Source: Sporosalibacterium faouarense (lineage in GTDB: Bacteria; Bacillota; Clostridia; Tissierellales; VENL01). Taken from it: DNA of 61,019 bases. Made by a program: the position numbers and the translations under genes. Within the stretch, counting starts at the first letter, position 1, and the number at the start of each line of letters is the position of its first letter. Location: positions 1 through 61,019 of the forward strand of contig NZ_JAETGO010000004.1 in assembly GCF_016765695.1 (NCBI RefSeq), given 5' to 3'. This document shows, one piece after another, positions 47,281 to 58,682 of the stretch. The notes below the pieces were generated by a model, which searched no databases, was not told the DNA's origin, and saw nothing but the letters and a program-made list of their open reading frames with translations.

Positions 47281-47378
47281 TACTTACATTATATCATACT
47301 AAAAATTTGAAAAAAAGTCTTATGTTTCAAGAATCCTTCCTATATAATAGAAACACTATCTTTTAGGGAGGGGTTTTA

Positions 47379-52836: not shown

Positions 52837-53034
52837 ATGCCATTTATTAGTTGACTTTTTTCCGAATCAATTAGAAGAAATATGCCATAGAAACATACAT
52901 GAAATGGATAAATAACTTATATAAATGTAATAAAGATAAAAATTGGAGAATACATTTTTTAATACAAGCTAAAAAAATAGTTCATAATTTCCTAATTATG
53001 GTATTAAAAAACTAAAAAGATAAGGATGGTAGAT

Positions 53035-55155
53035 GTGGAGTTAAATCAAAGAAAAATTGATATACTTCAAAAGCTAAGAAGACGTAAAGATTTTATTAAG
53101 GTAGAAGACCTTGCTAAAGAATATAAGGTGACTAACAGGACAATAAGATATGACTTAGATAAGATAGAGGAATTTTTAGTCAAGAATGGCTTTCACTACT
53201 TACAAAAGGAACATAAAAAAGGTGTAAAGCTATCTAAATCTAAAAGGATAGAGGAATTTATAGATAAGTTTATTAATTCGAAAACTCCTTATAGATATTT
53301 TTATTCAAAGGATGAGAGATTTAAAGTGATGATAGTTAAATTATTACAGTCTAGTGATCCCTTAAGTATAAGTTATTTTGAAAAGCTTTTATACATATCA
53401 AGAAATACAGTGTTGAAGGAATTAGATTTAATAGAGATGTGGCTAAAAAACAGAGGACTAGAGTTAATTAGAAAACCTAGAGTTGGAATCTTTATAGATG
53501 GAGAGGAAATAAACAAAAGAAAGGCTATTATAGAAGTGACAAGTGAAAGCATTTCTATAGAAGATATATATAGCTATATAAATCAGAAAATGGCCCAGAA
53601 CAAAATTAATAGTCTACAATTCGATGTACTTTTTTCAGAAATAGATATTAATTTTTTAAATGATTTAATTCTATATTCAGAAATTCAGCTAAAAAGGGAA
53701 TTTAGTGATAGAGCCTACAGTAATCTTTTAACCCATTTAGCCCTTATGATTAAGAGGATATTATTGCAAAAGCATATATATTTGCCTGATTTGAATGAGG
53801 AATCACTAGAGGAATCAAAGGAATATTTTGTAGCTAAGGAGATTATTAAAAGAATTGAAGGAAAATACAAGATAGAGGTACCAGAGGTTGAAATATATTA
53901 TATATCAATACATTTGCTTGGAGCTAAAACTCTTAAATACAACGGAGTTCTGGAAGACGATCTATATGAAGTAGCGAAAAAGATGACAGAGGGAATTGAA
54001 GAAATATATAATGTGTCTTTTGAAAATAAGAACAAAATAATTATAGGATTGGTAGTACACTTGAGACCAGCTATATATAGAATTAAATACAATCTTAAAC
54101 TCTCTAATCCTCTCTATAATGAAATTATTAATAATTATAGAGATTTATTTCTAAATACTAAATTAGTTATTAGAAATCTAGAAAAATACATTGGTACAAA
54201 AATTAGTAATCAAGAAATAGCTTATATAACATTACATTTTGGAGCAGCTCTAGAGTATGCTAGTGAAAGCAAAGTCAATAGAACCAGAGTAATTGTAGTT
54301 TGTGGCACAGGAATTGGAACTTCCAATATGATTGCCTCTCAGTTAGAAAAGGAATTTGATATTGAGATAGTCGATACAGTATCTAGTAGAAATATTAAAG
54401 AGATTGAAAAAAGCAAATATGATTTGATTATTAGTACTGTTGATATACCTGAGATTGAAGGCAACACATTTATTAAGATTAGTCCCCTATTGCTCAAGGG
54501 TGATTATGAGAAGCTAAAAAGCACCTTAGTATCTAAAAGTAACTTTAGCAATCATTATGATGACACTTTAATAAATAGATTACTCAGAGTAGTTGAAAAA
54601 TACTGTGACATTAAAGACAGATTACAATTAGAATATGAGTTTATGTATGAATTGAAGGCTAGTAAGCATGAAATACATCAGAAGGGAAAGGTTTATATGC
54701 TAAATGATTTATTGAAAAGAGATGTAATCAATCTTAATGTATCCTGTAATGACTGGAAGCAAGCAATTGATAAGTCTACTCATCTATTAATAGCAAAAGG
54801 ATATATAGAAGAGTCATATAGAGAAGCTATATATGACAATTTTAAAGAAATGGGACCTTATATGGTGGTAGGACCTGGAATAGTTCTGGCTCATGCTAGA
54901 CCTGAAAACGGTGTCAATAAACTTTGTATGAGCTTAATTACATTAAAGGAGCCGGTGGACTTTGGACATAAAGAAAATGATCCCATAAAGCTAGTTATTA
55001 CATTTGCAGCCCAGGATAATGAAAGTCATTTAAAGGCCTTATCTCAATTGATGGAGCTCCTGATGAACACTGAGGATTTAGAAACAATTATGAACTGTAA
55101 AGATAAAGAAAGAGTACTATCTATAATCAGAAAATATTCCAGTAATAGTGAATAA
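53035..55155 (+). CDS. BglG/MtlR-type PTS regulator with PRD, EIIB and EIIA domains
   Basis: The 706-residue transcription activator has an N-terminal HTH (about 1-60), a second winged helix (about 90-150), two PTS regulation domains (about 170-390) with phosphorylatable histidines in NLLTHLALMIKR, YISIHLLGAKT, VVHLRPAIYRI and YITLHFGAALE, an EIIB-like domain with Cys423 (VVCGTGIGTSN) and a C-terminal EIIA domain with His620 (LAHARPENGV). Such regulators are phosphorylated by HPr and the cognate transporter and thus report sugar supply. GTG at 53035 follows AAGGAT; the ATG at 53026 overlaps it. The ascorbate-type EIIB and EIIC genes follow, and no separate EIIA gene exists in the cluster, so the EIIA domain may also supply phosphate to EIIB. 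Confidence 0.9.
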   Translation: MELNQRKIDILQKLRRRKDFIKVEDLAKEYKVTNRTIRYDLDKIEEFLVKNGFHYLQKEHKKGVKLSKSKRIEEFIDKFINSKTPYRYFYSKDERFKVMIVKLLQSSDPLSISYFEKLLYISRNTVLKELDLIEMWLKNRGLELIRKPRVGIFIDGEEINKRKAIIEVTSESISIEDIYSYINQKMAQNKINSLQFDVLFSEIDINFLNDLILYSEIQLKREFSDRAYSNLLTHLALMIKRILLQKHIYLPDLNEESLEESKEYFVAKEIIKRIEGKYKIEVPEVEIYYISIHLLGAKTLKYNGVLEDDLYEVAKKMTEGIEEIYNVSFENKNKIIIGLVVHLRPAIYRIKYNLKLSNPLYNEIINNYRDLFLNTKLVIRNLEKYIGTKISNQEIAYITLHFGAALEYASESKVNRTRVIVVCGTGIGTSNMIASQLEKEFDIEIVDTVSSRNIKEIEKSKYDLIISTVDIPEIEGNTFIKISPLLLKGDYEKLKSTLVSKSNFSNHYDDTLINRLLRVVEKYCDIKDRLQLEYEFMYELKASKHEIHQKGKVYMLNDLLKRDVINLNVSCNDWKQAIDKSTHLLIAKGYIEESYREAIYDNFKEMGPYMVVGPGIVLAHARPENGVNKLCMSLITLKEPVDFGHKENDPIKLVITFAAQDNESHLKALSQLMELLMNTEDLETIMNCKDKERVLSIIRKYSSNSE

Positions 55156-55190
55156 TTATGCAGAAATAAATGTGGAAAGGGGGAAATACA

Positions 55191-55472
55191 GTGAAAATAC
55201 TTGTAGCTTGTGGTAGTGGACTAGGTAGTAGCTTTATGATTGAAATGAACATAAGGAAGATTATTAAAGAGCTAGGTGTGGAGGCAGAAGTAAGCCATAC
55301 AGATTTAAGCACTGCAAAAAGTGAAAAAGCGGATATTTATGTGGGAACTAGGGATATTGCTGACCAGCTAATAGGATTAGGAGGAGAGGTTATATCGCTA
55401 AAAAGTATGATAGACTTTGATGAACTAAAGGATAAGCTAAAGAGTGGTTTAGGGAAAAAGGGACTTATATAA
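55191..55472 (+). CDS. ulaB: PTS ascorbate-type EIIB component
   Basis: The 93-residue protein begins KILVACGSGLGSSFMIEMN, the UlaB/SgaB-type EIIB phosphocysteine loop with Cys7, and ends in a lysine-rich tail. It accepts phosphate from EIIA and passes it to the substrate in EIIC. GTG at 55191 follows AAAGGGGGAA; upstream frame codons lack a site. It is 35 bases downstream of the regulator gene and 23 bases before EIIC. Substrate class is by homology: ascorbate or a related sugar acid or pentose derivative. Confidence 0.88.
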   Translation: MKILVACGSGLGSSFMIEMNIRKIIKELGVEAEVSHTDLSTAKSEKADIYVGTRDIADQLIGLGGEVISLKSMIDFDELKDKLKSGLGKKGLI

Positions 55473-55495
55473 AAATAATAAAGGGGGAGTGTTAA

Positions 55496-56755
55496 ATGTT
55501 AGATTTAATTCTTGACATTCTTAGTGTGCCTGCAATTTTAGTAGGTTTAATCGCATTAATAGGTCTAGTAGTTCAGAAGAAGCCATCATCAGATGTTTTT
55601 AAAGGAACTATAAAAACAATATTAGGTTTTTTAGTTCTTAGTGGAGGTGCTGCTATAGCAGTTGATGCTTTGGGACATTTTGGAGTTATGTTCCAAGAGG
55701 CATTCAATGTTCAAGGGGTTGTACCTCACAATGAAGCGGTTGTAGCAATGGCATTGGAAAAATTCGGAACCAGTACAGCACTTATTATGGCTTTTGGTAT
55801 GTTAGCGAATATTTTAATTGCAAGATTTACAAAGTTAAAATATATATTCTTAACAGGACATCATACACTTTATATGGCTTGTATGATAGCTGTAATATTA
55901 GTAGTTGGTGGACTTGAAGGAACTGTATTAATTATCGTAGGTTCTATATTATTAGGTCTTGTAATGGCATTATTCCCAGCGATAGCCCATCCAACGATGA
56001 AAAAAATCACTGGAACAGATGATGTGGCCTTTGGTCACTTTGGAACAGTAGGGTATGTGCTTTCAGCTTGGGTTGGTAAATTAGTAGGTAAGAACTCTAA
56101 GTCAACGGAAGAAATGAAGTTCCCTAAGGGCTTAGGTTTCTTAAGAGATAGCTCAGTGGCAGTTGCCATAGTTATGGGACTTTTCTACATTGTAGTAGCT
56201 ATAGCTAGTGGAAAAACATTTGTTGAAGAGTTAAGTGATGGTCAAAACTTTATTATTTTTGCCATTATTCAAGCAATTACCTTTGCCGGTGGAGTTTATA
56301 TAATTCTAGCAGGTGTAAGGTTAATATTAGCCGAAATAATTCCTGCATTTAAAGGTATATCAGAAAAAATAGTACCCGATGCTAAGCCAGCACTGGATTG
56401 TCCAGTAGTATTCCCTTATGCACCTAATGCTGTCCTTATTGGATTTTTATCAAGTTTTCTTGGTGGAATAGTTGGTATGCTTGTTCTTATAGGGATGAAA
56501 GCAACAATAATTCTTCCAGGTGTTGTTCCTCATTTCTTCTGTGGAGCAACTGCAGGGGTATTCGGTAACGCTACAGGTGGTAAGCGAGGAGCATTTTTAG
56601 GAGCATTTGCCCATGGATTACTTATAACATTCTTACCAGTACTATTAATGCCAGTATTAGGAGACCTGGGATTTGCTAATACAACATTCAGTGATGCCGA
56701 TTTTGGTGTAGTAGGTATAATCCTAGGAAATATCATTAAAATTTTTGTTCATTAA
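55496..56755 (+). CDS. ulaA: PTS ascorbate-type EIIC transporter (UlaA/SgaT family)
   Basis: The 419-residue protein has about ten membrane helices and UlaA-family landmarks: VGLIALIGLVVQKK (about 17-30) near the N-terminus, LTGHHTLYMACM (about 120-131), DDVAFGHFGTVGY (about 174-186) and a late VPHFFCGATAGVFGNATGG (about 344-362). Length is close to or slightly below the E. coli protein (465). It binds and moves the substrate that EIIB phosphorylates. GGGGGAG precedes the ATG. A terminator separates it from the transketolase genes. Confidence 0.9.
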   Translation: MLDLILDILSVPAILVGLIALIGLVVQKKPSSDVFKGTIKTILGFLVLSGGAAIAVDALGHFGVMFQEAFNVQGVVPHNEAVVAMALEKFGTSTALIMAFGMLANILIARFTKLKYIFLTGHHTLYMACMIAVILVVGGLEGTVLIIVGSILLGLVMALFPAIAHPTMKKITGTDDVAFGHFGTVGYVLSAWVGKLVGKNSKSTEEMKFPKGLGFLRDSSVAVAIVMGLFYIVVAIASGKTFVEELSDGQNFIIFAIIQAITFAGGVYIILAGVRLILAEIIPAFKGISEKIVPDAKPALDCPVVFPYAPNAVLIGFLSSFLGGIVGMLVLIGMKATIILPGVVPHFFCGATAGVFGNATGGKRGAFLGAFAHGLLITFLPVLLMPVLGDLGFANTTFSDADFGVVGIILGNIIKIFVH

Positions 56756-56762
56756 ATAGCTT

Positions 56763-56791
56763 AAAGGGTAGATTCTTATCTACCCTTTTTA
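56763..56791 (+). terminator. Intrinsic terminator after EIIC
   Basis: AAAGGGTAGAT (56763-56773) pairs perfectly with ATCTACCCTTT (56778-56788), followed by T. Read-through to the transketolase genes is possible. Confidence 0.75.
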
Positions 56792-56917
56792 AATAGAGGA
56801 GAGATAAAAGAGGTGTATAGTAAGCTAAAGAAATTCTTATTATTTGAGTATATTCTGAAATGAGAGAAAGCAAACGTATATATCATATATATATAAATGA
56901 AATAAGAATGGAGGGGT

Positions 56918-57757
56918 ATGATGAAGTGTAATGAGATTAAAGAGTTAAAAAAAGTAGCTCTGTCAGTTAGAAGGGACTGTATAGAAGTTCAAAAGTTAGT
57001 TGGATCAGGACATCTAGGAGGATCTTTTTCAGTGGTCGAGCTATTGACCTATCTTTACTTCAGTAGAATGGATATTGATCCTAAAATGCCACTGAAGAAA
57101 AATAGAGATGTATTAATACTTAGTAAAGGTCATGCATCTTTAGCATATTATAGTATTCTTGCTAGAAGAGGTTTCTTTCCATTGGATGAACTAAAGACAT
57201 ATAGAAAGATAAACTCTAGGCTTCAAGGACATACACATATTGATGAACCACCAGGAGTTGAATGTAGTACTGGTTCTTTAGGTCAAGGATTATCCTATGG
57301 AATAGGTGTGGCTCTTGGATACAAAAAGGCCAATCTAGATAATAAGGTCTATGTTATCCTTGGAGATGGGGAAATTCAAGAGGGGCAGATATGGGAAGGA
57401 ATTATGCTACAAGGAAAGCTTCAGATGGATAACTTAATAACAATAATTGATAATAATAAAATACAACTAGATGACACTTGTGAAAATATTATGGGATATT
57501 ATAATCTAAAGGCTGTATTGCAAGGTTTTAACCACAATGTTATTGAGATAGATGGTAATAATTTTGAAGAGATCCACAAAGCAATTAATCAAATACAAGA
57601 AAATAAATCTAATATTATTATTGCTAATACTGTGAAAGGAAAAGGTGTATCATTTATGGAAAATGTAGTTGCTTGGCATGCTAAGAAGTTAGATGATGAA
57701 GAATACAATCTTTCTCTTAATGAATTAGATAATAGGGAGGTGCATCTAGATGAATAG
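56918..57757 (+). CDS. Transketolase, N-terminal (thiamine diphosphate-binding) subunit
   Basis: The 279-residue protein corresponds to the first half of transketolase: GSGHLGGSFSVVELLTYLYF (about 29-48), SKGHASLAYYSILARRG (about 70-86) and the TPP-binding GDGEIQEGQIWE (about 147-158). Split transketolases are normal in many anaerobes and archaea, so this is not a frameshift: the second half starts at its own ATG and ribosome site eight bases before this gene ends. Linked to an ascorbate-type PTS, it probably serves pentose phosphate metabolism of the imported sugar. Confidence 0.92.
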   Translation: MMKCNEIKELKKVALSVRRDCIEVQKLVGSGHLGGSFSVVELLTYLYFSRMDIDPKMPLKKNRDVLILSKGHASLAYYSILARRGFFPLDELKTYRKINSRLQGHTHIDEPPGVECSTGSLGQGLSYGIGVALGYKKANLDNKVYVILGDGEIQEGQIWEGIMLQGKLQMDNLITIIDNNKIQLDDTCENIMGYYNLKAVLQGFNHNVIEIDGNNFEEIHKAINQIQENKSNIIIANTVKGKGVSFMENVVAWHAKKLDDEEYNLSLNELDNREVHLDE

Positions 57758-58682
57758 CATGAAAGCACCTAGAGATGCATATGGTGAAATATTATTAGAG
57801 CTAGGGTCAGAAAATGAAAGAGTCTTTGTTTTAACAGCAGATTTAGCCTCATCAACTAAAACAGGATTATTTGCAAAGCAATTTCCAGATAGATTTTTAA
57901 ACGTAGGTATTGCTGAGCAGGATATGGTAGGGATAGCAGCAGGGTTATCTAGGGCAGGATTTGTACCAGTGTTTAGTACCTTTGCTTGTTTTGCACCGGG
58001 GCGTACCTATGATCAGATACGGCAATCTATTGCATATTCTAATGCTAATGTGAAAATTATATCCACTCATCCAGGCTTAAGTATTGGTATGGATGGTGCT
58101 ATACATCAGAGTTTAGATGATATTGCATTGACTAGGGAGTTACCTAATATGGTAGTATTAGCTCCATCTGATGAAATTGAGACTAGAGAAGCAGTGAAAA
58201 GTGCGATAGAGCATGAAGGACCAGTATATGTAAGGGTAGGAAGAAAGGAATGTCCTAAACTCTTAGATTCTAAATACAAATTTCAAATTGGAAAGGGATA
58301 TATTTTAAGAGAAGGCAAGGATATAACTCTTATAGGACATGGGTCCATGGTATCAGCAATAAATGAGGCTGCTGGTATTTTGGAGAGAGAAGGAATAAGT
58401 TCTAGAGTTATTTCTATGGCAAGTATAAAGCCAATAGACAGAGAATTGATTATAGAGTCTGCAAAAAAAACTAAAGGAATAGTAACTGCAGAGGACCATT
58501 TCCTATATGGAGGATTATATAGTGCAGTTTGTGAAGTAGTTTCGAGTGAATATCCTTGTATAGTTAAAGGAATAGCTGTTAATGATACTTTTGGAGAATC
58601 AGGCAAGCCAGAGGAATTATATACTAAGTATGGGTTGACAAAGGAACACATTATTAAGAAAGTATTTGAAATACTAGATTGA
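57750..58682 (+). CDS. Transketolase, C-terminal (pyrimidine-binding) subunit
   Basis: The 310 residues match the second half of transketolase: RDAYGEILLEL (about 7-17), FLNVGIAEQDMVGIAAGLSR (about 49-68), with the catalytic Glu of IAEQ, and FSTFACFAPGRTYDQIRQSI (about 74-93). It pairs with the upstream subunit, from which it is translated through an eight-base overlap. GGGAGG precedes the ATG. Confidence 0.92.
   Translation: MNSMKAPRDAYGEILLELGSENERVFVLTADLASSTKTGLFAKQFPDRFLNVGIAEQDMVGIAAGLSRAGFVPVFSTFACFAPGRTYDQIRQSIAYSNANVKIISTHPGLSIGMDGAIHQSLDDIALTRELPNMVVLAPSDEIETREAVKSAIEHEGPVYVRVGRKECPKLLDSKYKFQIGKGYILREGKDITLIGHGSMVSAINEAAGILEREGISSRVISMASIKPIDRELIIESAKKTKGIVTAEDHFLYGGLYSAVCEVVSSEYPCIVKGIAVNDTFGESGKPEELYTKYGLTKEHIIKKVFEILD

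Follow-up and report, generated by a model that had tools for sequence, protein, structure and literature searches.

In the 61,019-nucleotide stretch of Sporosalibacterium faouarense DNA analysed here (hereafter the window, comprising the whole of contig NZ_JAETGO010000004.1, designated C24, of a 4.1-Mb draft genome), five forward-strand genes at 53,026–58,682 encode a PRD-type transcriptional regulator, a free enzyme IIB (EIIB) of the phosphotransferase system (PTS), an ascorbate-type EIIC and a transketolase in two halves, an arrangement corresponding to the ula2-type order regulator(+EIIA)-EIIB-EIIC-TktN-TktC with no free EIIA. The EIIA domain fused to the C-terminal end of the regulator is proposed, on sequence and comparative evidence and with a probability of about 0.7, to donate phosphate to the transporter EIIB, either alone or alongside another EIIA, and the regulator is thus probably a working member of the phosphorelay. 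What the analysis establishes is its anatomy, active sites that are intact, and a comparative pattern such as a functional EIIA would leave. That it serves as the only donor to this EIIB in this genome is a more finely balanced proposition, tilting slightly towards the negative.

Domain Architecture of the Regulator and Transporter

The regulator gene (53,026–55,155) codes for 709 residues from its ATG start, with GTG at 53,035 as an alternative, and displays the architecture of UlaR2 and MtlR: two helix-turn-helix (HTH) domains, two PRDs with histidines, an EIIB-like domain with a cysteine and an EIIA-like domain with a histidine, in that order. Pfam placed an HTH_11 DNA-binding domain at residues 9–66 (53,050–53,223) and a Mga-type HTH at residues 91–165 (53,296–53,520), the latter being marginal at 20.4 bits against a cut-off of 21.1. 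PRD1 and PRD2 together span residues ~205–408 (53,638–54,249) and contain His237, His296, His345 and His404; Pfam gave two PRD stretches, with printed limits of 319–408, and the limits of PRD1 were set by ourselves. There follow the EIIB-like domain (PTS_IIB, residues 421–477, 54,286–54,456), with Cys426 encoded at 54,301–54,303, and the EIIA domain (PTS_EIIA_2, residues 562–703, 54,709–55,134, E = 1.1e-39). The active-site His623 of the latter (codon 54,892–54,894) lies in the loop HARPE, and a second conserved histidine, His668, is encoded at 55,027–55,029; the fused EIIA looks catalytically intact. The first-pass annotation had reported an intact EIIA histidine and an EIIB-like cysteine as His620 and Cys423, and both are confirmed under the present numbering, since its GTG start at 53,035 lies three codons past the ATG at 53,026. 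A profile search returned the regulator's domain as the sole EIIA_2 match in the window, bearing out the earlier statement that the operon has EIIB and EIIC genes and no free EIIA.

A structure model of the regulator built from 25 sequences (mean pLDDT 80.5, pTM 0.53) was confident for the EIIA domain, with pLDDT values below 50 in the stretches 503–511 and 546–554 that lead to it. Foldseek superimposed the modelled EIIA on the solved EIIA 3oxp at 1.6 Å (TM-score 0.93 by target length, 44% identity), the closest solved structures being 3oxp, 2oq3, 3bjv and 1a3a, and matched the front part of the regulator to AtxA, MgaSpn and the Enterococcus faecalis Mga-family protein 3sqn. The model thus supports the predicted domain folds, a pTM of 0.53 giving no reliable placement of the EIIA relative to the rest of the protein.

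The free EIIB (55,170–55,472, forward strand, 100 residues) matched PTS_IIB (PF02302) at 62.9 bits against a cut-off of 23.6 and carries the P-loop CGSGLGSS with the active-site Cys14 (codon 55,209–55,211), features of an ascorbate-family EIIB; it scored 28.9 bits with the UlaB equivalog PRK10222, below the cut-off of 138, and its nearest solved chain was 3czc. Its true start is likely to be the GTG at 55,191, downstream of AAAGGGGG. The EIIC (55,496–56,755, forward strand, 419 residues) matched EIIC-GAT (PF03611, E = 1.2e-151) and was assigned to the ascorbate family by NF006919 ('PTS ascorbate transporter subunit IIC'), with 607 bits against a cut-off of 380; its best-scoring model, NF009549, gave 662 bits against a cut-off of 890.

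Location of the EIIA in Related Loci

Relatives of the EIIC came partly from 40 genomes within the same family or order, 8 of which carry one at 79% identity or above, and partly from a named-genome sample consisting of the best 80 of at least 558 relatives which, being the best-scoring part of a longer list, leans to close relatives. After removal from the 92 tree rows of three contig-edge loci (L079, L098, L101) and the outgroup (L014, from contig C48), 88 loci were scored, including the window and three more distant homologues with EIICs 49–55% identical. In 30 the EIIA was part of the regulator, in 43 a free protein, in 6 present in both forms and in the remaining 9 absent; the proposition of a local EIIA at every such locus was thereby rejected. 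On the EIIC tree (outgroup included) these states changed at least 13 times, as against 38 in shuffles.

Several related loci depart from the ula2-type layout. Five (L063, L068, L072, L076, L157) have the rearranged order regulator-TktN-TktC-free EIIA-EIIB-EIIC, and in these the EIIA loop of the regulator is altered. In two others (L065, 5550–7684; L062, 1708–3794) the regulator is split by a frame change, either a sequencing error or a real fission, with the EIIA end whole in each. Clostridium ganghwense (L060) has a free EIIA-EIIB-EIIC set, and neither a PRD regulator nor a transketolase was found in its 17-kb locus.

Retention of the Active-Site Loop

A histidine aligned with His623 was present in all 94 aligned EIIA sequences. 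The loop H[AS]RP around it was retained in 30/30 fused-only loci of this first sample, the window included, and in only one of the six regulators that stand beside a free EIIA (L070, HSRP; the others being L063 HAKP, L068 HGKL, L072 HTDI, L076 HIDM and L134 HARY), all six free partners retaining it. A second sample, drawn after this pattern had been seen, covered 391 genomes of the class, that of S. faouarense included, at an EIIC threshold of E = 1e-120 or better. Ten other genomes gave an EIIC match, every one with a local EIIA (2 fused, 1 free, 7 both), and the loop was kept in 0/7 regulators with a free partner, in 7/7 of those partners and in one of the two fused-only regulators; in all seven loci with both forms the regulator's copy scored below the free partner with Pfam. 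The two samples combined gave retention in 31/32 fused-only regulators versus 1/13 beside a free EIIA, and in 13/13 free partners (Fisher p = 6e-9, kinship ignored), the rows of these counts not being independent because L157 is a sister of L076 from the first sample and L159 a sister of L160.

Domain Conservation and a Natural Deletion

Across the 28 full-length fused-only regulators, mean pairwise identity was highest for the EIIA (48.7%), the other regions giving 41.3% (PRD2), 35.9% (EIIB-like), 33.5 and 33.7% (the two HTHs), 28.7% (PRD1) and 26.8% (linker). Expressed as identity to the window divided by the mean of the five other domains, linker excluded, the EIIA gave ratios of 1.10–1.91 in the 27 other fused-only regulators and of 0.85, 0.85, 0.96, 1.04, 1.18 and 1.46 for the six regulators that stand beside a free EIIA. 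Cys426 was kept in 34/34 full-length regulators; the PRD1 histidines were not kept in Bacilli.

In one genome of the same order (G016; L050, 4262–7061) the regulator has shrunk to a 93-residue PRD1 remnant and the transketolase to a 119-residue remnant, and a free 149-residue EIIA open reading frame (ORF) with its own AAAGGGG ribosome-binding site precedes an intact EIIB and EIIC. This EIIA is sister to the fused one from Clostridium sp. Cult3 (SH-aLRT 99), and the EIICs of the two group likewise (95), for which reason the free EIIA is regarded as a fission product. The G016 genome contains 30 EIIA_2 matches in all.

Evidence Bearing on Alternative Donors

A number of observations weigh against the regulator as phosphate donor. 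The best model for its EIIA domain was the UlaC equivalog PRK10372, which it matched at 116.5 bits, under the cut-off of 187, and the domain is consequently termed ascorbate-type and not UlaC. The one fused-only regulator to depart from the loop pattern, L165 of the second sample, has HAQPDK; moreover, a kinship-aware test was left with three independent contrasts on supported branches (averaging 2.6 in the predicted direction, 0.4 tied and 0 contrary), too few for the loop association to reach significance once kinship is counted. On the supporting side, the free EIIA of G016 has stayed under strong purifying selection: the ratios of nonsynonymous to synonymous substitution (dN/dS) between G016 and Clostridium sp. 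Cult3 were 0.030 for EIIA, 0.043 for EIIB and 0.050 for EIIC, all rough values with dS at 1.1–1.3, near saturation, and 0.32 for the PRD remnant. Intact fused pairs gave 0.08–0.19 for PRD1 and 0.02–0.21 for EIIA (five of six pairs computable), dN/dS being beyond computation for several pairs with saturated synonymous sites; because 0.03 falls within the latter range, it denotes an unbroken and not an increased constraint on the G016 EIIA. The remnant's value exceeded those for PRD1 in five intact pairs and was not much higher than those of two regulator pairs beside a free EIIA (0.23–0.25). By these ratios, then, loss of the remainder of the regulator did not loosen the constraint on this EIIA.

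Two further points concern EIIAs encoded elsewhere. The nine loci with no EIIA all belong to Pasteurellaceae by name; this was checked for Testudinibacter, and the other genera are taken by us to belong there. Whole-genome searches of six of the nine found in each (6/6) an ascorbate-type EIIA with the loop H[AS]RPE beside a fused EIICB gene elsewhere, so that feeding in trans presumably happens; the likely donor in these six is an ula operon located elsewhere in the genome, and the Pasteurellaceae pattern is the best evidence that such feeding is possible. A free EIIA is present in other Pasteurellaceae of the set (L074, L092, L095). In four Pasteurellaceae loci (L084, L087, L110, L130), all of them lacking an EIIA, a divergent regulator, LacI-like by eye, replaces the PRD regulator.

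Secondly, the S. faouarense genome itself holds 8 EIIA_2 matches, and the candidate proposition that it contains no other EIIA was rejected. Three matches are free ORFs of 145–160 residues: an ascorbate-type EIIA on contig C48, a galactitol-type EIIA on C50 (nearest the galactitol model) and a fructose-type EIIA on C55, which passed the fructose model. Four more lie in long regulator-like frames, that of the window scoring highest (139.5 bits, against 113.6, 85.6 and 62.2 for the others); the lowest is a weak, altered EIIA in an MtlR-like regulator, named by eye, on C77. The C48 EIIA gene (145 residues) immediately precedes an EIIB and an EIIC (EIIC-GAT) of its own operon; its best match was the ascorbate EIIA model, at a score under the cut-off of that model, and it is 39% identical to the EIIA domain of the window, with the loop HSKPSE where the window regulator has HARPE. 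The window regulator's EIIA is thereby not the only ascorbate-type EIIA of this genome, and the C48 enzyme could stand in for it. By eye, the C48 operon (L014, 6063–11,578) has a GntR-like regulator ahead of this EIIA and, further downstream, phosphotriesterase-, aldolase- and creatininase-like genes and an HPr-like gene. Two contig ends (L013, 1–955, and L017, 2820–3284; C58 and C77) share a near-identical piece that is MtlA-like by eye, one running into an EIIA and the other stopping after the EIIB, a pattern attributable to two mtlA copies or to an assembly break.

These results divide the earlier claim that the only EIIA of this system is the one fused to the regulator: it stands for the operon and fails for the genome. 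The first-pass annotation had itself named a standalone ulaC-type EIIA that phosphorylates this EIIB as what would overturn its proposal; half of that was found, in the form of the C48 enzyme, a candidate donor to this EIIB. Of its suggestion of the regulator as an obligate member of the relay, the working EIIA is upheld by loop retention, conservation and the G016 locus; 'obligate' is not supported as stated, because the C48 EIIA could substitute and the Pasteurellaceae loci evidently manage with an EIIA encoded elsewhere.

Within the proposed donor role of the regulator, an improbable but still credible variant is that the fused and C48 EIIAs feed EIIB redundantly, in which case the regulator would be in the relay without being obligatory here. 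The shared type and 39% identity of the two EIIAs are consistent with this, as is the coexistence of free and fused EIIAs in 13 loci; in those same 13 loci, however, most of the fused copies no longer have the loop, which would fit a redundancy that does not last, and the loop of the C48 EIIA is not the HARPE that usually accompanies an EIIB-EIIC of this type.

Next in order, and unlikely, is the alternative that the fused EIIA is solely a sensor, receiving or returning phosphate for control, while EIIB is phosphorylated in trans, most probably by the C48 EIIA. The presence of that same-type enzyme in the genome and the Pasteurellaceae relatives described above argue for it, as does EIIA cross-talk in Bacillus subtilis, which one paper (PMC6148471) presents as experimentally known for glucose-family EIIAs and which likewise counts against the regulator as donor. 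It leaves unexplained, however, why the fused loop is kept where there is no local free EIIA and mostly lost where there is one, and why the EIIA of G016 has outlived nearly all of its regulator. It is further opposed by three draft genomes, those of Clostridium sp. Cult3 (G049), Thermobrachium celere (G050) and a Thermoanaerobacterales metagenome bin (G053), in which inspection of all EIIA_2 matches at E = 0.001 or better (2, 2 and 3 respectively) found no ascorbate-type EIIA besides that of the regulator. The other EIIA is galactitol-type beside an EIIC-GAT in G049 and G053, and fructose-type beside a fructose EIIBC in G050; the third match in G053 lies within a DagR/LevR-type sigma-54 regulator, its best model being DagR at a score under the cut-off. 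In T. celere a frame change interrupts the regulator and leaves the EIIA portion complete. A more distant relative, G027, also has two matches, the second of which is an orphan ascorbate-type EIIA (L141, 4904–5374, contig C14) with the loop HARPE, no adjoining PTS gene being seen and an iron-sulphur-type gene, named by eye, lying ~1.3 kb on. EIIA matches are likewise few in the genome of L066 (G051).

That the real partner is a free EIIA which was overlooked, or has been concealed by misassembly, is conceivable for a draft in 99 contigs, 97% complete and 2% contaminated, and is very improbable given that 29 others among the 88 scored loci show the same fused arrangement with no free EIIA.

Proposed Phosphorelay and Its Implications

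Under the preferred reading, in which the EIIA of the regulator feeds the transporter, this ula2-type operon would encode a transporter energised by its own transcription regulator. EI and HPr are both encoded in the genome, and we infer that phosphate would pass from phosphoenolpyruvate through EI and HPr to His623 of the regulator, thence to the cysteine of the free EIIB and on to the substrate during import by EIIC. The phosphorylation of His623 and, via His623, that of Cys426 and the PRDs would then report transport flux: with substrate present, phosphate would drain via EIIB and the regulator, dephosphorylated there, would activate the operon, and with substrate absent it would stay phosphorylated and inactive. 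UlaR2 and MtlR serve as the models from which the sign of this regulation is inferred.

In the customary picture PRD regulators stand at the end of the PTS, which acts on them without routing its phosphate through them. Were the proposed relay to operate, sensing would be inseparable from transport, a mutation that silences the EIIA of the sensor would also stop uptake, and the deletion phenotypes of such regulators (e.g. ulaR2) would mix transcriptional and catalytic defects. With Clostridium sp. Cult3, T. celere, Thermohalobacter and the fission locus of G016, the question comes within reach of ordinary laboratory organisms. The wider generalisation, that across a broad bacterial group the phosphorelay of sugar transport depends for its catalysis on a DNA-binding transcription factor, on which the flux through the transporter is read directly, that the EIIA has repeatedly moved between fused and free states, and that the regulator's copy decays once a free one exists, is offered tentatively, as something short of an even prospect.

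Other Features of the Operon

The transketolase halves, defined by ORFs and family profile matches, occupy 56,918–57,757 (N-terminal) and 57,750–58,682 (C-terminal) on the forward strand with an 8-base overlap. Between EIIC and the first of them lies a perfect hairpin of 11 bp with a run of T at its end (56,763–56,788, forward strand), terminator-like in form, with an RNA fold of −14.9 kcal/mol (z = −3.05, equalled by 3/200 shuffles). A strict terminator scan did not flag it; it may partly separate transketolase expression from that of the upstream genes. A promoter scan found 22 candidates versus 33.8 in shuffles, i.e. fewer than by chance.

Comparison with Known Systems

The ula2 operon of Streptococcus pneumoniae (SP2131–SP2127, or SPD_1961–1957; ulaR2, ulaB2, ulaA2, tktN and tktC) is the closest counterpart, its published description (Bidossi et al. 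2012; PMC3302838) matching the present operon in gene order, in domain make-up, in the lack of a dedicated EIIA and in a regulator that carries one; the same source had already suggested that the PTS is energised by the EIIA of the regulator. It also proposed xylulose or ribulose for the pneumococcal system, and these, with ascorbate, are the candidate substrates here. Afzal et al. (2015; PMC4324149) describe activation of ula2 by UlaR2 in ascorbate, list comparable operons from further streptococci, note an extra IIA gene within the operon of strain G54, and report a single transcript for the pneumococcal genes, unlike which the window has its terminator-like hairpin between EIIC and tktN. 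The 16-bp streptococcal UlaR2 weight-matrix consensus was not found at the operon with up to 3 mismatches, its one match in the whole window lying at 47,311 with 3.3 expected by chance. Deletion of ulaR2 in two strains is reported in a 2019 study (PMC6780617) to weaken the growth of both in vitreous humor, a phenotype in which, as there described, transcriptional and catalytic losses are inseparable. No test of phosphotransfer by a regulator EIIA was found in the open-access literature, most subscription papers lying outside that coverage.

MtlR of B. subtilis shares the order HTH, HTH, two PRDs, EIIB-like cysteine and EIIA-like histidine, with sites at His230, 289, 342, 399, Cys419 and His599 according to PMC8560693. 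The counterparts of these sites in the window regulator, by order and spacing and not by alignment, are His237, 296, 345, 404, Cys426 and His623. The mannitol transporter has its own EIIA, and MtlR is therefore not needed as a donor. In fold and active-site loop the EIIA of the window resembles the free L-ascorbate/mannitol-type EIIAs (UlaC, CmtB, 3oxp), unlike which it is fused to a transcription factor. MalP, NagP, SacP and TreP of B. subtilis, described in PMC6148471 as EIIA-less transporters fed through cross-talk, resemble the present transporter in having no EIIA of their own, and differ from it in that their donor is a glucose-family EIIA and not a regulator; that paper also describes KM455, a B. 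subtilis strain lacking every EIIA. The kind of system is thus known and the donor idea already in print; what is new is the evolutionary evidence for it, together with several organisms suited to testing it.

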